From positions 1 to 27,588 of the IMG/VR virus record IMGVR_UViG_3300031758_000452: DNA of 27,588 nucleotides; one strand, given 5' to 3'. The notes under the pieces are model-generated. The model was not told the DNA's origin. It was given only the letters and a program-made list of their open reading frames with translations, and did not search any database. Shown here in pieces: positions 9,551 to 25,086 of the stretch (positions are counted from its first letter, which is position 1; every line of letters begins with the position of its first letter). This DNA is from a virus. The position numbers were made by a program, and so were the translations under genes.

Positions 9551-10612
9551 ATGAAAATAGCAGTATATGCAATTGCTTTAAATGAAGAGAAGCACGTTAT
9601 GCGTTGGTTGGAAGCAACCAAAGATGCTGATGTTAGACTAGTTGCTGATACTGGTTCAACAGATAGAACTGTTAAAATATTACAAGGGGCACCAAATGTT
9701 ATTGTTCATCAAATCAGTGTTCAACCGTTCAGGTTTGATGATGCGCGTAATGCTGCTCTTGCTTTGTTACCTACTGATGTTGATATGTGTCTTTCCCTTG
9801 ATTTGGATGAGATACCGCAAGATGGATTCTTTGATGTTGTAAGACAGAACTGGACTCCTGATGTTAACCGTATTTGGTTAACTTGGGAAACAGGATACAA
9901 GTGGCAGAACAATAATCGTTTTCATTCAAGACACGGTTATCGTTGGGTTAAGCCTTGCCACGAGGTCACAGAATATTATGGTGACTTTTTTGGTGGTGAA
10001 GAGAAAAGTATTACTCTTGATTTAACTGTTACACATAGACCTGATGATGATAAGTCTAGGGCACAGTATCTTCCTATGTTGAAGATGGCTGTTGCTGAAG
10101 CACCTAATGATGCTCGTATGTGGGCTTATCTTTGCAGAGAGTATTTCTTTCACAATAAGTGGAGAGAAACTATTGAGTCTGCTGAAGAGATGCTTAAAGC
10201 AGGTGGCTGGTATATAGAACGTGCAGCGTCTTGTAGGGCTGCTGGTGAAGCGTTTGTAAATCTTAAGAATAAAGAGATGGCAAGGGACTGGTTTGTTAAA
10301 GGTGTGAAAGAGGCACCTGACCAACTTGAGGCTTGGTATTCTTTAGCACAATTTAATTATGATGTTAAGAACTGGCAGGGATGTTGGGACTCAGCAATTA
10401 AGGTTGAGACACTTACTAAAGAGAAACATTATCTTATTAATGATGATGTTTGGAATTGGAAATGTTTTGATTTGTTAGCCATCTCAGGATGGCATCTTGG
10501 TAAAAAGAAAGAAGCAATTGATTACGCAGTGATGGCAATACAAAACAATCCTAAAGAACAAAGATTAATAGATAACTTGGAATGGATGCAAAAACAGGAT
10601 GACAACGTTTAA
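9551..10612 (+). CDS. Glycosyltransferase (GT2-like, GT-A fold) with TPR-like C-terminus, 353 aa
   Basis: The N-terminus has the standard start of GT2 enzymes: VYAIALNEEKHVMRWLEA, then VADTGSTDRTVKIL (residues 31-44) and a DLDE metal/nucleotide-sugar motif at 84-87. A conserved-looking WVKPCHEV lies near 143-150. From about residue 160 to 345 there are repeated helical pairs of TPR type (MWAYLCREYFFHNKWRETIE and similar). Such enzymes transfer a sugar from a nucleotide donor. Its place between head and connector genes suggests it modifies a virion protein or a host surface glycan, but the acceptor cannot be told. The ribosome site GGGGACGAT precedes ATG. It overlaps the next gene by 14 bases. 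Confidence 0.8.
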   Translation: MKIAVYAIALNEEKHVMRWLEATKDADVRLVADTGSTDRTVKILQGAPNVIVHQISVQPFRFDDARNAALALLPTDVDMCLSLDLDEIPQDGFFDVVRQNWTPDVNRIWLTWETGYKWQNNNRFHSRHGYRWVKPCHEVTEYYGDFFGGEEKSITLDLTVTHRPDDDKSRAQYLPMLKMAVAEAPNDARMWAYLCREYFFHNKWRETIESAEEMLKAGGWYIERAASCRAAGEAFVNLKNKEMARDWFVKGVKEAPDQLEAWYSLAQFNYDVKNWQGCWDSAIKVETLTKEKHYLINDDVWNWKCFDLLAISGWHLGKKKEAIDYAVMAIQNNPKEQRLIDNLEWMQKQDDNV

Positions 10613-13463: not shown

Positions 13464-13796
13464 ATGGCAATTACATATAAGGTGCTAGGTCAATCAGCAC
13501 CATCAGCAACAACCAACACTGATGTTTACACTGTTGGTGCAGGAAAGCAAGCAACTATTTCTACTATCACGGTGTGTAACCGTAACACTACAACATCAGC
13601 AACGTACCGTATCGCTGTTCGCCCTGATGGTGCATCAATAGCAAATCAACATTATGTTGCTTATGATGCAACTGTTGGTCCTAAAGATACTGTTACTTGG
13701 ACTATTGGTATCACAGCAGATGCCTCAGATGTTGTTACTGTGTATGCAAGTTCTGCTGATTTATCTTTTAACATCTTCGGAGTGGAGATTGCGTAA
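13464..13796 (+). CDS. Small beta-sandwich virion protein, 110 aa
   Basis: An all-beta protein with regular strands: KQATISTITVCNRNTTTSAT, YRIAVRPDGA, and a later TVTWTIGITADASDVVTVYA. Proteins of this size and pattern occur next to tail fibres in many phages and are probably fibre or tail accessory proteins, or decoration proteins with an immunoglobulin-like fold. AAGGAAAACTA precedes the ATG. The stop overlaps the next start (TAATG), which places it in the adhesion operon. The precise role is unknown. Confidence 0.6.
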   Translation: MAITYKVLGQSAPSATTNTDVYTVGAGKQATISTITVCNRNTTTSATYRIAVRPDGASIANQHYVAYDATVGPKDTVTWTIGITADASDVVTVYASSADLSFNIFGVEIA

Positions 13797-14326
13797 TGGC
13801 TATTAAAACGGCTAGTGGTTCTGATTTACGTAATAGTTTAAGTTCTGGTTTGGTGTTGTTGAATACGACTACTTTTAGTGGAGTAGCCAGTCAATCAATC
13901 AATGATGTATTTAGTGCAACATATAAAAGTTATTTAATTATTTGTGGTTTTACTTCAATTACTGCTTCTCCAATGACTATGAGATTAAGAGTATCTGGTA
14001 CAGATAATTCGGCAGCAAATTATGGTTTCGCTTATACAGTTGGTCGTTTAGGTTATCACGACAGTTCTGGCGCAAACACAAACACAAGTTGGGAAATTTC
14101 TCAAGCAGAGAATTTTAGACAATGTTCTTTTACAATGCATTTACACAATCCTTTTGAAACAGAGTTCACGACTTTCCAAAGTAGTACTGCTGCTTTTAAC
14201 AACAGTAATTCATTATTTTATAGTCACAGTGGCGCAACCAGCGTAACAACTTCCTACACAGGTTTTACTTTGTTGCCACCTGGAAATATGACTGGAACAG
14301 TCAGCGTTTATGGATTGGCGAAATAA
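13796..14326 (+). CDS. Receptor-binding-type fibre protein, paralogue A, 176 aa
   Basis: A beta-rich protein related to three others in this window. Shared elements are SGLVLLNTTTFSGVASQSI at 18-36, FSATYKSYLI near 39-48, MRLRVSGTDNS near 62-72 and a C-terminus GNMTGTVSVYGLA. The middle of the protein differs between paralogues, as expected for a jelly-roll-like head whose loops contact the receptor. The short N-terminus (MAIKTASGSDLRNSL) may bind the tail. It is followed directly by a small chaperone-like gene, with one-base overlap. Receptor binding is inferred from context and variability. Confidence 0.65.
   Translation: MAIKTASGSDLRNSLSSGLVLLNTTTFSGVASQSINDVFSATYKSYLIICGFTSITASPMTMRLRVSGTDNSAANYGFAYTVGRLGYHDSSGANTNTSWEISQAENFRQCSFTMHLHNPFETEFTTFQSSTAAFNNSNSLFYSHSGATSVTTSYTGFTLLPPGNMTGTVSVYGLAK
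13845..13885 (+). repeat. 41-bp near-identical repeat, copy 1 (with 14663-14703)
   Basis: The 41 bases from ctggtttggtgttgtt to ttttagtggagta match 14663-14703 with only two differences. The repeat lies in the same reading frame in paralogues A and B and codes for the conserved GLVLLNTTxFSGV strand. The genes differ strongly beyond it, so this could be a site of homologous recombination that swaps receptor-binding heads, or a remnant of recent duplication. Confidence 0.85.
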
Positions 14327-14538
14327 TGGCAACAGAAAAAATAAGGATTGGTATTGATGACCAAGTTATTGAATTAACTGGTCAAGCAAAAGCAGATTTT
14401 ATTGCAGATAGAGAAGCCTCATTAGAAGCACAACGCCTACTTGAAACGAAGTATAAAGAAAAACAAGAAGCCAAACAAAACATACTAAAAAAACTTGGTC
14501 TAACACAAGACGAACTAGAAACATTACTAGGAGCATAA
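14326..14538 (+). CDS. Small fibre-assembly chaperone-like protein, copy 1, 70 aa
   Basis: A helical, charged protein that begins MATEKIRIGIDDQVIELTGQ and ends GLTQDELETLLGA, with a Glu/Lys-rich helix between. A second copy, 73 aa, lies at 15132-15353 with the same layout. Small helical proteins of this form commonly follow tail-fibre genes and act as, or are annotated as, fibre assembly chaperones; that role is inferred here. It is linked to the fibre gene upstream by TAATG and ends directly before the ATG of the next fibre. Confidence 0.65.
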   Translation: MATEKIRIGIDDQVIELTGQAKADFIADREASLEAQRLLETKYKEKQEAKQNILKKLGLTQDELETLLGA

Positions 14539-15132
14539 ATGGCTAAACAAGCGTACGTGTACTCTGGAACCGATTGGGTTCCGTTAGCATCAGAGGTGAC
14601 TAACCTTTCTAACTATTACACTAAAGGTGAGGTTGATACTAACTTTACAACTAAGGCTTCTACTGGTTTGGTGTTGTTAAATACGACTAGTTTTAGTGGA
14701 GTAAGTTCTCAAAATTTAGATAACATTTTTAATGCAACTTATGAAAATTATATTGTTGAATTAAGATTTGTTCACAGCACAAGCAGTTCAATTGGTATTC
14801 GTATGCGAGCAGGTGGAACTAACAACACAGGTGCTTCTGCTTATGTCAGAACATTTATTAGAGGTGTTTCTACTGCAACAGCACAACAAGCAACAACAGA
14901 CCAATGGGGTGATGTGATAGAAACTGACACAAACATTTGTAATTTAACAATGTGGTTTTATAGACCATTTTTAGCAGAGCCAACAGGATTTAAGGCTTTT
15001 GGTGGTCGCGCCACTTCAATCACAGGTTATCTTGGTAGACATACTGAAAGTGTTTCCTATGATGGCATAGGGATTCTTTTGGGTACAGGAAATATAACAG
15101 GAAAAATATCTACTTATGGATTGGCTTTGTAA
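14539..15132 (+). CDS. Receptor-binding-type fibre protein, paralogue B, 197 aa
   Basis: It has an N-terminal attachment-like segment with YVYSGTDWVPLASEV (5-19) and NYYTKGEVDTNF (24-36), both patterns usual in tail-fibre linkers. Then comes the shared head: TGLVLLNTTSFSGVSSQNL, FNATYENYIV, IRMRAGGTNNT and a C-terminus GNITGKISTYGLAL. The middle loops (about 105-170) are unlike paralogue A. The segment around 14663-14703 is nearly identical to paralogue A at DNA level. It is followed by its own chaperone-like gene with a one-base overlap. Receptor binding is inferred. Confidence 0.65.
   Translation: MAKQAYVYSGTDWVPLASEVTNLSNYYTKGEVDTNFTTKASTGLVLLNTTSFSGVSSQNLDNIFNATYENYIVELRFVHSTSSSIGIRMRAGGTNNTGASAYVRTFIRGVSTATAQQATTDQWGDVIETDTNICNLTMWFYRPFLAEPTGFKAFGGRATSITGYLGRHTESVSYDGIGILLGTGNITGKISTYGLAL
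14663..14703 (+). repeat. 41-bp near-identical repeat, copy 2 (with 13845-13885)
   Basis: The partner of 13845-13885, with two mismatches in 41 bases and the same reading frame. It encodes the GLVLLNTTSFSGV strand at the beginning of the receptor-binding-type head of paralogue B. Confidence 0.85.
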
Positions 15133-15353
15133 TGGCTACAGAAAAAATTTTTGTTGGATACAACAATGAAAAAGTTGAATTAACAGGTGTAGAAAAAGAA
15201 CAATTTTTACAACAAAGAGAATTAGATAATCAAGCAAAACTTTTACTTGAAACGGAGCAGTTGGCTAAGCAAACTGCACGCGCATCAGCAATTAACAAAC
15301 TTGCAGAAGTTGCAGGACTAACCGAAGAAGAAATTGAAGGGTTGATTAGATAA
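15132..15353 (+). CDS. Small fibre-assembly chaperone-like protein, copy 2, 73 aa
   Basis: A paralogue of the 70-aa protein at 14326. Shared positions include MATEKIxxG near the start, ELTGxxKxxFxxxRE, LLET in the central helix, KQ-A, and GLTxxExExL at the end. It is helical throughout after a short beta start. It overlaps fibre B upstream and the 307-aa fibre downstream by one base each. A role in folding or trimerising the upstream fibre is inferred from position and from having a duplicate in the matching position. Confidence 0.65.
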   Translation: MATEKIFVGYNNEKVELTGVEKEQFLQQRELDNQAKLLLETEQLAKQTARASAINKLAEVAGLTEEEIEGLIR

Positions 15354-16277: not shown

Positions 16278-16859
16278 ATGACTAAGGCAAGAGATTTAGC
16301 GAACGGTGGTTTCGGTTTAGTTCTTATTAAACCTTCTTCTGTTGTGAATGGTACGGATAATGGTAAGGGTACTGTAAGTTTCAGTGGTGTTACAAGTGTG
16401 TCGTTGAATGATGTGTTCAATGCAACTTACACAAATTATAAAATGATTTTAAATGATGTAACACCACCAAGTCCAGGTGCAGAAATTACTTTTAGAATGC
16501 GTGTTTCTGGTTCAGATAATTCAACTTCAGGAAACTATATGTGGGGTAAAATTGGTTTAGAATTTGATGGTAGTGCTTCAAATGGTAATGGTGGAGCAAG
16601 TGCTACTTCTTTTAATATTGATTTTAATGATTCTGCTAATGGTATTTCTGGTGCATTTGATATTTACACCCCATTTGTTACGACAGATGTAACAAGATTT
16701 TCAGGCGTTTCACAATCACACAGAACAGATTACACAAATTCTTGGTTTAGAACGTCAGCAGGAAATATGACTGTTACAACTTCTTATACAGGTCTGACAT
16801 TAATTTGTGGTTCAGGAAATATGTCTGGTTCAATTTCAGTTTACGGTTACAACCAATAA
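16278..16859 (+). CDS. Receptor-binding-type fibre protein, paralogue D, 193 aa
   Basis: A short N-terminus (MTKARDLANGGFGLVL) resembles the start of many phage fibre-tip proteins. Residues about 30-60 carry VSFSGVTSVSLNDVFNATYT, close to A and B. RMRVSGSDNSTSGNYMWGKI follows and the C-terminus is GNMSGSISVYGYNQ. The middle is Gly/Ser/Asn/Asp-rich and specific to this copy. It is one base away from the previous stop and has no chaperone-like gene after it. It is the last of the four receptor-binding-type genes before the 661-aa tail protein. Confidence 0.65.
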   Translation: MTKARDLANGGFGLVLIKPSSVVNGTDNGKGTVSFSGVTSVSLNDVFNATYTNYKMILNDVTPPSPGAEITFRMRVSGSDNSTSGNYMWGKIGLEFDGSASNGNGGASATSFNIDFNDSANGISGAFDIYTPFVTTDVTRFSGVSQSHRTDYTNSWFRTSAGNMTVTTSYTGLTLICGSGNMSGSISVYGYNQ

Positions 16860-18863: not shown

Positions 18864-19118
18864 ATGAGTTTAAGTATTATTAAAGATGTATTGTTTCGTT
18901 CCATTGCATTGTTTATGACAATGGCTTTACCAGCAATTGGTGCTGGTGCTTTTGCAGGTGTTGAACCTGTTAACTCTGCGTTGATTGCAGGAGCCCTTGG
19001 TGTGTCTAAGGTTCTTACAGATTTAGCCAAAGCGTTCTTGGATGACGGAAAACTTACACAAGAAGAAGTAGATGGCGTGTTCAAACGTGCTGGTAAAAAA
19101 TCTGAAGGTGGCAAGTAA
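18864..19118 (+). CDS. Holin-like small membrane protein, 84 aa
   Basis: Two closely spaced hydrophobic segments, residues about 10-31 (FRSIALFMTMALPAIGAGAF) and about 36-50 (NSALIAGALGVSKVL), are followed by a charged tail ending in a Lys/Gly-rich segment (KRAGKKSEGGK). Length, hydrophobic pattern and place two genes before an endolysin without signal peptide fit a holin, which makes the membrane lesions that let the endolysin reach peptidoglycan. The tail contains DDGKLTQEEVDGVFKR, common in phage holin-like proteins. ATG directly follows the previous stop. Confidence 0.7.
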   Translation: MSLSIIKDVLFRSIALFMTMALPAIGAGAFAGVEPVNSALIAGALGVSKVLTDLAKAFLDDGKLTQEEVDGVFKRAGKKSEGGK

Positions 19119-19121
19119 ACC

Positions 19122-19502
19122 TTGTACGTTCAATTAAAAGATGACAAGGTAAAACAATCTTTCAAACCTAATGTTTGGACACCTATGGTGCTCAATGGTC
19201 AAGATGCTATTGACCCAACAAAGGAAGGTAATTGTTTTTGGGAATCCCAATTACATTTAACTTTACCTAAAACAGGTAGACCAACCTATGTGAAAATAAA
19301 TTTCTCAAGAGATTACAAAGGTAAGAACGACACTACTGGCACTAACACTTATGCTGTGCCAGCAGACGTTACCTCTGTTCAGTTCACTCTGTCTTGGTTC
19401 TTTAAAGCAAAACCTGGTACACCTATCTCTTGTATGGTTTACCACAACGGAAAGTCAGATATAGTTTCACCGATTAGACAATTTAAAGGAATGATACTGT
19501 AA
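19122..19502 (+). CDS. Unknown beta-rich protein in the lysis region, 126 aa
   Basis: It starts at TTG with GGTGG upstream, three bases after the holin-like stop, and ends sharing one base with the endolysin start. It is soluble, without signal peptide, with many short strands (NVWTPMVLNG, WESQLHLTLP, TYVKINFSRDYKG, SVQFTLSWFFKAKPGTPISC). I do not recognise the family; a lectin-like or jelly-roll fold is possible. The place between holin and endolysin suggests a virion or lysis accessory role, for example binding the cell wall for the very short endolysin, which lacks a binding domain. That is a guess from context. Confidence 0.6.
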   Translation: MYVQLKDDKVKQSFKPNVWTPMVLNGQDAIDPTKEGNCFWESQLHLTLPKTGRPTYVKINFSRDYKGKNDTTGTNTYAVPADVTSVQFTLSWFFKAKPGTPISCMVYHNGKSDIVSPIRQFKGMIL

Positions 19503-19897
19503 TGGGATTACCTATTAAAGATGGAAAGATTACAACTGCTTATGGCAAAAAAGGTAAGATGTGGAAATCTGGCTATCACACTGGTGTGGACTTCGCTGTA
19601 CCTCAAGGTACTGATGTCATTGCTGTTGCTGATGGAAAGATTGCTCCTGCTAATTGGGGTAAAGCCTACGGAACTCATCTTGTACAAAAGATTGAAGGAC
19701 AAGACACTTGGGTTATTTATGCACATCTATCTAAGTCCCTTGTCAAGGCTGGCGATGAAGTCAAAAAAGGACAACACATAGGAGAGTCAGGTAACACTGG
19801 TAATTCTTCTGGTCCTCATTTACATTTTGAAGCCAGGAATAATGTTCGTTGGTCTGCTGGTAAAGATGTTGACCCGAAAGATATTCTCGCTATTTAG
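19502..19897 (+). CDS. M23 (LytM-type) peptidoglycan endopeptidase, endolysin, 131 aa
   Basis: Motifs of the M23/LytM zinc metallopeptidase family are complete: H26-x3-D30 (GYHTGVDFAVPQGTDV), H75 (IYAHLSKSL), and the H106-x-H108 motif (SGPHLHFE), plus the standard GDEVKKGQHIGESGNTG before it. The enzyme cleaves peptide cross-links of peptidoglycan. The protein is just the catalytic domain with no cell-wall binding domain, no signal peptide and no membrane segment, so release depends on the holin-like protein upstream. Its end overlaps by eight bases with the convergent gene on the other strand. No hairpin is visible between the two convergent genes. Confidence 0.9.
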   Translation: MGLPIKDGKITTAYGKKGKMWKSGYHTGVDFAVPQGTDVIAVADGKIAPANWGKAYGTHLVQKIEGQDTWVIYAHLSKSLVKAGDEVKKGQHIGESGNTGNSSGPHLHFEARNNVRWSAGKDVDPKDILAI

Positions 19898-20423
19898 TTT
19901 GTTTATGTGTAATAAACGGTGGTGCAGTAAAGACATTGTTCTTCGCTGCAATATTCATAGCCTGTTTCCAGGAAGCACCTGCTTGTAAAGCACCTATGGC
20001 ATAAGATGCCCCACTTCCTATGCCATAGATACCATCATCTCTCATTAGCACAGACAATGTGTCATCTATCTCGTAGATAATACCGTTTAATGCTATGAGA
20101 AATATAAAGTCTTGGTCTTCTGATTCTTTATCAGGTTGATAACCATTAACAGATAAAGTAAATCTTATTGATGGTGCAACTGTTTCAACCATATAATGAT
20201 ATGGGTCCTTGTTTGCCACTGGTGTTAATGATGGTGGTTTCCAAATGTGTTGCACAATATCGCAAGGTAAGGTTAGCCCTGCACCTGCTATCAAAAACTT
20301 TCCACGTTTAGTTATCTTAGTAACTACTGGATGTGTGTAGGTTCTTCCTGAATCATCTGTGATTCGTGAGTCTGCAACAAGTAAACAATGGTCTTCTTTT
20401 TGTATACCAATTATTGTTGTCAT
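19890..20423 (-). CDS. HslV/proteasome-beta-like Ntn-hydrolase, 177 aa
   Basis: The protein starts MTTIIGIQ. Removing Met exposes Thr1, the nucleophile of proteasome beta subunits and HslV. In mature numbering VADSRIT places Asp17, Ser18, Arg19 and Thr21 exactly where the family has them; Lys35 (TKITKRG) would be the Lys33 equivalent after a two-residue insertion; AGAGL matches the Gly47 region; and GIGSGASYAIGALQAGAS matches the Ser129-Gly130 region with its helix. Length is close to HslV. An ATG five codons upstream is in frame, but the chosen ATG overlaps the previous stop as ATGA and has GGAG nine bases before it. No HslU-like or other AAA unfoldase is seen in the window. The target is unknown; role in proteolysis of host or phage proteins is inference. 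Confidence 0.8.
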   Translation of the reverse strand: MTTIIGIQKEDHCLLVADSRITDDSGRTYTHPVVTKITKRGKFLIAGAGLTLPCDIVQHIWKPPSLTPVANKDPYHYMVETVAPSIRFTLSVNGYQPDKESEDQDFIFLIALNGIIYEIDDTLSVLMRDDGIYGIGSGASYAIGALQAGASWKQAMNIAAKNNVFTAPPFITHKQTK

Positions 20424-21010
20424 AGTAATGTGCTCCACTTTTCTTCAAAGTATGTTTGGTCTGCTTTAGTAAGTTCCATTAGTTCTTCATTGGTGGATGT
20501 TAAATGGTTTGGGTGTAAGTGTTCTACTTCTGCTGGAATGTAAACAACTTCACCAAGTTCTTTTGCTTTTAATCTGATGTCATCATCACCGTACCACCAT
20601 CTAAAATTTTCATCTGCTCTGATGTTTGATTTAATATCAAGTACCCAACAGTAACCTGGAATATGTCCTGCGTATGGTAAAGGATAACCAAGTGTTGCTT
20701 TAAGTTTGTTCATACCGTAAGCAATTTTATTTATAGGATTGTTTTTTAGTACCACATCATCGTTTAATACAGCAATATAATCTGCACCAAATGTTCTGGC
20801 AACATCTATGCCACGATTCCACCATCTGTGGATATTAACTGGGTCTAAATCCCAAATGTTATTAACACCTTCTATAGGTTCTGATTCAACTGTATGCACA
20901 ATCACAATTTTTTCAGGAGAGATTTGACTTTCTTTAATTATGTCTGCAAGGTATTGACGGCGTGTTCCAGTAGGAATGGTTAACCAAATGTCTAGGTTAT
21001 TATCTGTCAT
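20420..21010 (-). CDS. Small GT-A-type glycosyltransferase, 196 aa
   Basis: The N-terminus (IWLTIPTGTRRQYLADII) and PEKIVIVHT are the Rossmann-like start of GT2-type enzymes. WWNRGIDVARTFGADYIAVL is followed by NDDVV (83-87), the metal/nucleotide-sugar motif. WWYGDDDIRLKAKELG (138-153) and the His in EHLHPN (163-168) fit the acceptor/catalytic region. Length is short, so only the catalytic domain is present. It probably glycosylates a host or phage component in the cytoplasm. AAGGAT eleven bases before ATG supports the start. It is the first gene of a two-gene minus unit with the Ntn-hydrolase and its first 23 bases overlap the oppositely oriented secreted-protein gene. Confidence 0.75.
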   Translation of the reverse strand: MTDNNLDIWLTIPTGTRRQYLADIIKESQISPEKIVIVHTVESEPIEGVNNIWDLDPVNIHRWWNRGIDVARTFGADYIAVLNDDVVLKNNPINKIAYGMNKLKATLGYPLPYAGHIPGYCWVLDIKSNIRADENFRWWYGDDDIRLKAKELGEVVYIPAEVEHLHPNHLTSTNEELMELTKADQTYFEEKWSTLL

Positions 21011-21989
21011 ATCTATCTTTATCCTTACTACTCTTATTGCTCAACCATCATACTCTGATGATGTGACTATTAATCTTGATTCTACTACACCTTATGTGGA
21101 TATTCCTGTAACTGTTACTGAACCTGTTGATGCAACTATCAGCACTGTTACTGGTACTCCTCAAGATAATCCTGGGTTTATTGATTCTTGGATTGAGGTT
21201 TGGCAAGACACTGTTCGACTTGCATACAATGATGACGGATTACATAGTGCTAGCAACGTGCTAGCATCCATCATTACTATACCACTACAAGTTGGTGAGT
21301 ATTTCATTCGTGCCACCTCTTACGCTTATGCGTGTTGTAATTCGTATCCTACTGGTTCTTACTTGTTGTCTACCAATTTAACAGTAGCCACGCCAAGCCC
21401 ATCACCGACATTGATAGAACCGACACCAGAGCCAAGCCCTTCGCCAACTGAAAGTCAGACATCTAGTCCAACCCCAGTTCCGTCTTCATCAACGACAACC
21501 GATGAGCCAACTCCTGAGCCTTCTTCTCCTTCTCCGTTACCGTCTGATACTCCCTCTCCATCATTAACTCCAGAGGTTCCAGTTGCTCCAGTTCAAGAGC
21601 CATCCGTGCCAAGCCCTGAAGTTTTATTAGAGTCTTCAACGCCTGAGCCATCTCAGTCTCCATATGTTCAAGATACTTTAGAAGTAGTTGTTGATTCGTC
21701 ACCTAGCGATTTCCCTTCTTCTTTGGAGAACGAGTTACCTTTGTTGGAAGAGACTTTATCCATAGACGAAACCGAATCTCTCCTTGAATTTCTTCCAGAA
21801 CTTTCATTAGAATCATTGCAAGAAACGTTCCAACAAATATCTGAAACCATAACTGAGACATTATCTACCGTATCCAATCTTGGGTCTGAGTTCACACCTG
21901 AAGAACGTGAACAGGCTCAACAGGTTGTACTTGGTGCAATAATTGTAACACAACTGTCTGCTGCTGCAACAACTAGGAGAATAAAATAA
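20988..21989 (+). CDS. Secreted protein: PPC-like domain, Pro/Ser/Thr-rich linker, C-terminal hydrophobic end, 333 aa
   Basis: A signal peptide covers about residues 1-23 (SRLLSVISIFILTTLIAQPS) with likely cleavage after SYS. Residues about 24-133 look like a PPC-type beta domain: IEVWQDTVRLAYNDDG, VGEYFIRATSYAYACC and PTGSYLLSTNL. A Cys pair at 116-117 is notable. Residues about 135-225 are a Pro/Ser/Thr/Glu linker, then an acidic helical part (LPLLEETLSIDETESLLEFL). The end holds a hydrophobic stretch (VVLGAIIVTQLSAAA) followed by TRRIK, like a C-terminal membrane anchor. An ATG at 20976 is in frame, but the chosen one gives a cleaner signal peptide. Probably exposed at the host surface; a role in lysis or in excluding other phages is possible. 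Confidence 0.7.
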   Translation: MSRLLSVISIFILTTLIAQPSYSDDVTINLDSTTPYVDIPVTVTEPVDATISTVTGTPQDNPGFIDSWIEVWQDTVRLAYNDDGLHSASNVLASIITIPLQVGEYFIRATSYAYACCNSYPTGSYLLSTNLTVATPSPSPTLIEPTPEPSPSPTESQTSSPTPVPSSSTTTDEPTPEPSSPSPLPSDTPSPSLTPEVPVAPVQEPSVPSPEVLLESSTPEPSQSPYVQDTLEVVVDSSPSDFPSSLENELPLLEETLSIDETESLLEFLPELSLESLQETFQQISETITETLSTVSNLGSEFTPEEREQAQQVVLGAIIVTQLSAAATTRRIK

Positions 21990-21990
21990 A

Positions 21991-22191
21991 ATGAAACGTG
22001 TCCTATCATTCATCTGGAAACATCTTGATGCGTGGGCTGGCGAAGCCTTTACCATTGTTGGTTTAACTATTGCTTGGATAGTGCTACCTCCTGGTGACAC
22101 ACGTAACGTTGTAGGTATCATTTGTCTTGGTGCTTTTGCTGTTTGGACACTGTTTAAGGTGACCCTGAACACCGATTCTAAGGACAAATAA
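21991..22191 (+). CDS. Two-TM small membrane protein, 66 aa
   Basis: One base separates it from the secreted-protein stop; the ATG follows GGAG and AAAATAAA. Two hydrophobic segments, about residues 19-33 (AFTIVGLTIAWIVLP) and 41-57 (VGIICLGAFAVWTLFKV), are joined by a short PGDTRN turn; the ends are charged (MKRV, NTDSKDK). No family is recognised. The size would fit a holin or antiholin, but it is away from the endolysin and is coupled to the secreted protein, so it may serve its insertion or a shared membrane role. The strong hairpin downstream ends this two-gene unit. Confidence 0.65.
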   Translation: MKRVLSFIWKHLDAWAGEAFTIVGLTIAWIVLPPGDTRNVVGIICLGAFAVWTLFKVTLNTDSKDK

Positions 22192-23634: not shown

Positions 23635-23924
23635 TCAACGCCTTCCCATTGTTTATCTAGCACCATCATTGCGATGATTGCATAGTTTGCTATGTCCATA
23701 AAAGAATCACGTAACGATTCATTCTCTGGTGTTACACCTGTTTCGACAAGGTTATTGATGCGAGCAAGTTTGTCAAACATTCTCACACGTAACCCATTAA
23801 GTGGACCACCAGGTGAATCAGAAATATTCTTTGGTCCATAATCTTTTTGTTTCTTAATTAACAACTCTGCTAAACCATCTGTGTACACATAGGTTAGTTC
23901 AGCAAATCTTACTTCGTTATACAT
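23631..23924 (-). CDS. Nmad1/DUF1599-like protein, 97 aa
   Basis: KKQKDYGPKNISDSPGGPLN (24-43), GLRVRMFDKLARINNLV (44-60), and ENESLRDSFMDIANYAIIAM (68-87) form the signature I recognise as nucleotide-modification-associated domain 1 (DUF1599), an all-helical phage domain. The final D-x-ANYA helix recalls MazG-type NTP-binding helices, so nucleotide-pool handling is possible but unproven. I chose the ATG that shares one base with the primase stop (TAATG); an in-frame ATG nine codons upstream, inside the primase gene, is possible. It ends in an ATGA overlap with the phosphoesterase. Confidence 0.75.
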   Translation of the reverse strand: MYNEVRFAELTYVYTDGLAELLIKKQKDYGPKNISDSPGGPLNGLRVRMFDKLARINNLVETGVTPENESLRDSFMDIANYAIIAMMVLDKQWEGVE

Positions 23925-24544
23925 TAGGCTGCCACTTTCTGTTTGAACCAATCGAAACCGTTAGCGTTCTTGATAAACAAACTGTTAACATCTTCACCAT
24001 CTGGAATGGTGATAGGTATAACACCTGCTACTTTTCTTGCTAGGTCTTTAGCGAAGTCACGACCTGCTGTGTCACCATCAGCGAACACATATATCCTGTC
24101 AAAGTCTGACAAGATTTTGTAATGATGTGGCTTAATGTTTTTTACACCAGGAATACCAAGGGCAGGGTAACCTAGTTTGGAAAGTGTGATGGTATCTATT
24201 TCTCCTTCACATAAACATATCCAATCGGTTGCTTGAAAGTATGCTTCAACATTGTAAAGTCTTGTAACAGATGCAGGTAAACCTAAATACTTTGGTTCAG
24301 AATAATCTATTGCCCTGAACCTAATATCAACAACACCTGCTCTAGTTATGTAAGGTATCGCTAGCCTGTTCTGATACGCTTCGTGACCTACGAGTGGTTG
24401 GTTCACTACCCCCAGACGAAACCTCTCTGCGTCTTCCAGAGATAGTCCCCTCTTGGCGAGATACTCTTCTGCCAAGTTGATTGACTTTTGGTAATGAGAT
24501 GTTGCTTGTTCCAGTAATTTCTTCTGCTCTTGATTTTGCTTCAC
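23924..24544 (-). CDS. DNA primase, TOPRIM catalytic part, 206 aa
   Basis: Residues about 27-75 (EEYLAKRGLSLEDAERFRLG, YQNRLAIPYITRAGVV) are the N-terminal half of the DnaG RNA polymerase domain. CEGEIDTITL (112-121, Glu113) and VFADGDTAG (Asp156, Asp158) are the TOPRIM motifs that bind magnesium. It makes RNA primers for replication. There is no zinc finger; that is in the gene before it. The chosen GTG at 24544 has AAGGG ten bases upstream, in the coding region of the zinc-finger gene. The frame is +1 relative to that gene, and the two overlap by about 200 bases, so the primase could also be made as one chain by frameshifting. Confidence 0.8.
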   Translation of the reverse strand: MKQNQEQKKLLEQATSHYQKSINLAEEYLAKRGLSLEDAERFRLGVVNQPLVGHEAYQNRLAIPYITRAGVVDIRFRAIDYSEPKYLGLPASVTRLYNVEAYFQATDWICLCEGEIDTITLSKLGYPALGIPGVKNIKPHHYKILSDFDRIYVFADGDTAGRDFAKDLARKVAGVIPITIPDGEDVNSLFIKNANGFDWFKQKVAA

Positions 24545-24758
24545 GAAAACCAATCCCTTCTTGTTCCATAATTATTTTAAAAATGTCTCCCTTAATACTA
24601 CAGGCAAAACAGGAGAACGCATTCACCTCAGTGTTAACTGTTGCTGAGGCGTGACGGTCAGAATGAAAAGGACATTTCATACTGCGCCATCCTCTGCCAG
24701 ATGGTACCTTTACAGCCCCATAAAGCATCAACACTTTTGCGATAGGTGAATCAGACAT
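24342..24758 (-). CDS. DNA primase, CHC2 zinc-finger part, 138 aa
   Basis: CPFHSDRHAS (C29, H32) and FSCFACSIKGD (C50, C53) are the C-x2-H ... C-x2-C zinc site of DnaG-type primases, which reads the template for priming. EGIGFREAKSRAEEITG (67-83) ends the domain. From about residue 90 the frame is Arg/Ser-rich with no normal look (GRRVSRQEGTISGRRREV), because there the other frame codes the TOPRIM part. ATG at 24758 is chosen over the TTG one codon upstream, with AAGGGA in front; it overlaps the previous gene by eight bases. Real protein may end early by frameshift or carry this odd tail. Confidence 0.8.
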   Translation of the reverse strand: MSDSPIAKVLMLYGAVKVPSGRGWRSMKCPFHSDRHASATVNTEVNAFSCFACSIKGDIFKIIMEQEGIGFREAKSRAEEITGTSNISLPKVNQLGRRVSRQEGTISGRRREVSSGGSEPTTRRSRSVSEQASDTLHN

Positions 24759-25086
24759 CAAGTTCCCTTATCAAACTTAGAAACATATACACTGGCATTG
24801 TTGCATACCATTCGCCAACATCTAATGTTCCACGTTTCTTATGAATAACTGCACCTGTTACAGCGTCAGCGTTATCCACTTCAACTACTAACTCTTTAAC
24901 CCAACCAGATAGTTCCATCTTCTTGTGGTCTTTAACTTCCAATACCACATCATCAATGCCTGAGATGTCACCTTTATCTAAACTACCTTGCAGTGCACGG
25001 CGTTCTGCTTTAGGGAAACCGTTTGCTTTAAGGTATTTAACTACAGCAGTTTCTGCAGCAGTACCTTTTTGTTTAGACTTGCTCAT
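24751..25086 (-). CDS. PD-(D/E)XK nuclease, Holliday-junction-resolvase-like, 111 aa
   Basis: KGTAAETAVVKYLKANGF (7-24) carries Glu12; KGDISGIDDVVLEVKDHKKM (38-57) carries Asp40 and the E50-x-K52 pair: together the metal-binding core of PD-(D/E)XK nucleases. ADAVTGAVIHKKRG follows the core as in resolvases. Actinobacteriophages often have such a gene next to primase. It probably cuts branched DNA during replication and packaging. I chose ATG 25086 with AGGTGA directly upstream; GTG 25092, two codons upstream, is possible. It overlaps the zinc-finger primase part by eight bases and the Cys-rich mini-gene by 14. Confidence 0.8.
   Translation of the reverse strand: MSKSKQKGTAAETAVVKYLKANGFPKAERRALQGSLDKGDISGIDDVVLEVKDHKKMELSGWVKELVVEVDNADAVTGAVIHKKRGTLDVGEWYATMPVYMFLSLIRELDV

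Follow-up and report, generated by a model that had tools for sequence, protein, structure and literature searches.

The window analysed here, a stretch of 27,588 nucleotides comprising positions 1 to 27,588 of the IMG/VR record IMGVR_UViG_3300031758_000452, carries on the strand opposite its late block a gene for a proteasome-like peptidase (Table 1), whose product begins MTTIIGIQ. The reading frame, its strand and its residues are as the initial annotation had described them: counting the initiator Met as 0, so that Thr1 is residue 2 of the ORF, the product has Thr1, Thr2, Asp17, Ser18, Arg19, Thr21, Lys35 and GIGSGASYAIGAL, a set well beyond what chance would give. In profile searches it matched phrog_1040 ("peptidase HslV family") over residues 1-175 with an E-value of 2.7e-27. 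The Pfam family Proteasome (PF00227) scored 19.3 bits against a gathering score of 22.4 (E 0.00095), and it matched 44 of 47 relatives at E<=0.01, the best at 2.8e-9. These relatives came from scans of IMG/VR, which returned hundreds of them, mostly on contigs of up to about 42 kb; below we refer to 278 complete copies, 47 representatives and 28 long relative phage records. Two scans of genome contigs with a few short peptide patterns, a weak kind of evidence, gave no cellular relatives, and PADLOC gave no match.

Table 1. Features of the peptidase gene and its two neighbours, with positions in the window
Feature	Position	Strand	Basis
Proteasome-like Ntn-hydrolase gene (phrog_1040), 177 aa, no propeptide, Thr1 directly after the start codon	19890..20423	-	ORF, PHROG profile, relatives, fold
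Catalytic Thr1 codon (ORF residue 2)	20418..20420	-	278/278 relatives; pairs with chain residue 1 in BPH and HslV
Asp17 codon	20370..20372	-	278/278 relatives
Lys35 codon, equivalent of proteasome Lys33 / Td-BPH Lys37	20316..20318	-	47/47 representatives; BPH numbering PMC5777263
Gly48 codon, probable oxyanion-hole Gly (proteasome Gly47 / Td-BPH Gly50)	20277..20279	-	47/47 representatives
Acidic 12-residue loop GYQPDKESEDQD, pore-loop site between second helix and next strand	20109..20144	-	Charge over 47 sequences; site per PMC5777263, PMC8665760
Ser136 codon in G-S-G, Ser129-equivalent	20013..20015	-	Ser in 38 and Thr in 9 of 47; glycines on both sides invariant
Lysin gene (peptidase M23), convergent with and overlapping the peptidase gene by 8 nt	19502..19897	+	PF01551 E 3.3e-30
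Upstream gene, GT-A glycosyltransferase-like by eye only; stop overlaps peptidase start by 4 nt	20420..21010	-	ORF

The pairing with a glycosyltransferase, also put forward in the initial annotation, was not confirmed, as searches with the product of the upstream gene gave nothing in Pfam or PHROG and no meaningful hit in the PDB. A glycosyltransferase with TPR repeats (PHROG 13126) is encoded elsewhere, within the structural block (9551-10612). The tail region holds a tandem duplication of a two-gene unit (13796-15353), encoding proteins of 176 and 197 aa that are 36% identical and, as second gene, a protein of 70 or 73 aa (45% identical); 16278-16859 carries a third related copy (33%). Immediately ahead of the lysin genes, an ORF for an 84-aa protein (18864-19118) bears a doubtful 'nuclease' label from PHROG 26427 and looks by eye like a small, holin-like membrane protein. 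Furthermore, a 337-aa protein without family match (20976-21989) combines a likely signal peptide with a long stretch rich in Pro, Ser and Thr and a hydrophobic C-terminus. The next ORF (21991-22191) encodes a 66-aa putative membrane protein, and the two possibly form a cell-wall-spanning lysis pair.

Every one of the 278 IMG/VR relatives has Thr-Thr at positions 1-2 and Asp-Ser at 17-18. Likewise, Lys35, Gly48, Gly135 and Gly137 are invariant in all 47 representatives, and position 136, flanked by the last two glycines, is Ser in 38 and Thr in 9 of them (Gly-Ser/Thr-Gly). The active set of the proteasome family, namely the Thr nucleophile and the equivalents of Asp17, Lys33, Gly47 and Ser129, is present in all sequences checked. 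In each copy a start codon immediately precedes Thr1 (278/278; ATG in 247, GTG in 26, TTG in 5), and therefore no propeptide is made; all 278 products begin Met-Thr-Thr, whatever the start codon. By the rules of methionine aminopeptidase, Met is expected to be removed before Thr, and this removal would expose Thr1. The gene is, judging from its dN/dS of 0.04-0.15 against near relatives, under purifying selection. In Td-BPH, a beta-proteobacterial proteasome homologue (BPH), the counterparts of the active set are Thr1, Asp17, Lys37, Gly50 and Ser139 (PMC5777263).

The profile search and the monomer structure prediction that the initial annotation had proposed as checks both kept the product within the proteasome-like family. 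A profile of the 47 relatives searched against the PDB placed BPH first (4e-10), followed by HslV (5e-8) and the 20S beta subunit (2e-4). The AlphaFold2 model built from 47 diverse sequences has a pLDDT of 93.7 and replaced an earlier one built from 12 close sequences (pLDDT 45). It contains helices at 51-60 and 74-92 and a terminal strand at 171-176 with no helix after it, and it matches the four-layer Ntn fold of solved proteasome-like subunits. Foldseek ranked BPH at the top for this model (5ovs, E 8e-10); in VIA-align, where rows within 1 Z were taken as tied, BPH and HslV aligned at Z 16.8-17.6 over 156-167 residues, the best value being 17.6 (5ovt, 4hnz), and model residue 2 paired with chain residue 1 (Thr1) of both. 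From the profile ranking and the fold match it follows that the ORF product is a proteasome-like Ntn-hydrolase, more precisely one of the group I proteasome-like subunits as Fuchs et al. 2021 define them (PMC8665760). The claim of an HslV/proteasome-beta-like Ntn-hydrolase with a full catalytic set thus holds, whereas its narrower version, HslV proper, was rejected: the NCBIfam HslV models scored 20.3 and 20.1 bits against cut-offs of 157.75 and 137.

Assignment to other named members of the family was rejected as well. The NCBIfam archaeal 20S beta model gave 22.2 bits against a cut-off of 224, and a propeptide is lacking in 278 of 278 relatives. Anbu ends in a long C-terminal helix, H5, which is absent here. 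PPH has about 140 aa and no helix H2, as opposed to 177 aa with H2 in the phage peptidase, and connectase, as defined in PMC8665760, does not fit a protein in which both first helices are present and the two-helix S3/S4 insert is not.

Very probably the host is an actinobacterium, in keeping with the original proposal, because WhiB occurs in 26 of the 28 long relatives and the capsid protein of the window shares 57% identity with its Streptomyces phage counterparts. According to PMC10611076, WhiB, which was also found in 13 of 16 capsid-matched contigs, occurs exclusively in actinobacteria and in their phages. The GC content of 36-42% would fit low-GC freshwater actinobacteria; no tRNA genes that could serve for host assignment were present in the relative loci. 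The peptidase gene was not found in the Streptomyces phages sharing the capsid, and its family extends to phages of E. coli, Vibrio and Klebsiella.

In the window the peptidase gene does adjoin the M23 lysin gene, so that its description as lying beside the lysis genes is correct for this genome; it does not carry over to the relatives, where the gene belongs to the replication block, on the strand of DnaB and primase. Three other sites were seen there: the gap between primase and metallophosphoesterase, the gap between DnaB and primase, and the position just before primase. For instance, in one relative (L085) the lysin and the glycosyltransferase-like gene are immediate neighbours, and the peptidase gene sits between DnaB and primase. 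Where the markers were found, the peptidase gene shares its strand with primase in 100 of 100 and with DnaB in 97 of 97 cases, and lies on the strand opposite the lysin; about 172 further loci without any marker gene were left out of these counts. On a quick tree with many forks open, the four placements plus outgroup require at least 6 changes, the least possible being 4. The lysis-gene neighbourhood is specific to the window lineage, and a functional link to lysis or to the neighbouring gene is unlikely because the position of the gene changes among relatives. Moreover, the gene is accessory: among 9 capsid-matched records longer than 38 kb, 6 carry it. Within the replication genes of the window, the primase is apparently split into two overlapping ORFs (23924-24761), an N-terminal primase PHROG (24342-24761) and a Toprim part (23924-24553).

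Across the 47 sequences the loop at the pore-loop site is 12-16 residues long and rich in Asp/Glu, with a mean of 4.6 acidic versus 1.7 basic residues; its mean net charge of -3 only ties for that of the most acidic 12-residue stretch of the peptidase. HslV carries a basic cluster on a short linker at this site, whereas BPH, for which no unfoldase is known, has a long acidic loop (PMC5777263). Because the loop is acidic as in BPH, and not basic as in HslV, it suggests a BPH-like mode. No unfoldase gene is present in the window, as had been noted at the outset, and AAA_2 (PF07724, the HslU/ClpX type) was detected in none of the 28 long relative phage records, an absence that is not proof as the contigs are possibly incomplete. 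The only AAA matches in relatives, to PF00004, are located at the DnaB-like helicase gene and were rejected as unfoldases.

We tentatively favour the reading that the gene encodes an active group I threonine peptidase, a relative of HslV, BPH and AAH, which would form rings, be made early and act without a dedicated unfoldase. In this model, methionine aminopeptidase would expose Thr1, which Lys35 and Asp17 would then activate. We infer that the subunits would form a double ring like that of BPH, with the active sites turned inward and the acidic loop lining them, and that the enzyme, operating independently of host ATPases, would need no unfoldase of its own. Judging from gene placement only, it would be made early, alongside the replication proteins, and may degrade or trim a restricted group of loosely folded polypeptides, of the host or of the phage, in the service of host takeover or counter-defence. 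This reading is supported by the fold, the complete catalytic set, the actinophage context, the placement on the replication strand, the lack of a phage AAA+ partner among the records searched, and a gene that is accessory but selected. It is weakened by the behaviour of BPH, which bound epoxomicin but left model substrates uncut (PMC5777263), and by the acidic loop being only tied with the most acidic stretch of the protein.

The host, however, may itself provide an unfoldase (Mpa/ARC, ClpX or ClpC), in which case an active ring peptidase would depend on it and the phage would redirect the unfolding power of the host to its own chamber. We consider this unlikely, yet it draws on the actinobacterial host, the failure to find a phage unfoldase and the HslV-like fold. 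Against it, pairing of the HslU type is not indicated, as the pore loop is acidic like that of BPH, which lost the HslU-binding residues, and the hosts of the E. coli, Vibrio and Klebsiella phages that also carry the family differ in their ATPases. Rather improbable, in turn, is an enzyme of narrow specificity that processes or transpeptidates a single protein without a degradative chamber, in the manner of connectase, a monomeric ligase within the proteasome-like family (PMC8665760). A single stand-alone gene without partner would agree with such an enzyme, but the connectase hallmarks considered above are missing, and the helices H3/H4 of the ring contact carry no insertion. It seems very improbable that the protein is an inactive decoy which binds the proteasome rings of the host or poisons them: an actinobacterial host, as supported by capsid and WhiB, could possess a 20S proteasome, but a decoy would have no need of catalytic residues, and these never vary among the sequences checked. 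The similarity to BPH and HslV is also higher than that to the 20S beta subunit, including the actinobacterial one, and nothing favours a replacement of host 20S rings. Finally, a prohead protease for virion maturation is scarcely credible, even though no other was recognised near the capsid gene, given that the gene lies on the replication strand outside the capsid block, that 3 of the 9 long relatives sharing the capsid lack it, and that it was not found in the Streptomyces phages mentioned above.

Returning to the favoured active threonine peptidase, proteins of this kind are already known from phages: the homologues PPH and AAH were reported in 2021, neither function nor substrate being assigned to them (PMC8665760), and the literature searched, largely without subscription journals, yielded no functional work on such a phage homologue since then. 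The peptidase is a well-populated addition to them and no separate class; its clade is large, its active site invariant and its host group likely. Whether a widespread freshwater-actinophage clade carries its own unfoldase-independent, self-compartmentalising early threonine protease for host takeover or counter-defence is more doubtful; if so, a viral proteasome-type chamber would for the first time have a defined role.

Likeness to known phage proteins begins with the other members of PHROG 1040, among them those of Vibrio phage henriette 12B8, Escherichia phage phAPEC8 and Actinomycetia phage DSL-LC01, which belong to the same profile family and have the N-terminal Thr and Asp17. Most annotated members are only 24-33% identical to the peptidase, and the present clade differs from them in residing on actinophage genomes of about 38-42 kb. 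Distant homologues also exist in isolated phages, namely gp135 of Microbacterium phage Pumpernickel and gp77 and gp81 of the Arthrobacter phages Pitbull and Hum25, respectively, all 27-33% identical to one member of the window peptidase family. In the proteases of Pumpernickel and Pitbull the N-terminal Thr, Asp17, Lys and G-S-G are intact, as in the window peptidase. The hosts of the three phages are cultured, which makes the function approachable in culture, and there the protease gene stands among unrelated neighbours. PPH and AAH, the latter compared by its published description, are likewise group I proteins carried by phages, for which no AAA+ partner was found. Fuchs et al. 2021 found no Actinobacteria-specific phages with AAH (PMC8665760), a gap on which our carriers bear, as they look actinobacterial.

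Of the cellular systems, HslV resembles the phage peptidase in fold, in the Met-Thr-Thr start and in the G-S-G motif, but has the basic residues Arg86, Arg89 and Lys90 where the phage peptidase has its acidic loop, and its partner HslU was not found in the phages. The best solved match by both profile and fold is BPH (PDB 5ovs, 5ovt, 5ovu), a double ring (tetradecamer) that bound epoxomicin and gave no activity on model substrates (PMC5777263). BPH is 20-22% identical, is encoded on a bacterial chromosome and not in a phage, and forms heptameric rings, whereas the phage protein is known from its sequence and a monomer model. Nevertheless, the two have in common the Thr1/Asp17/Lys/Gly/Ser set, the lack of a propeptide, an acidic pore-loop site and no known unfoldase.
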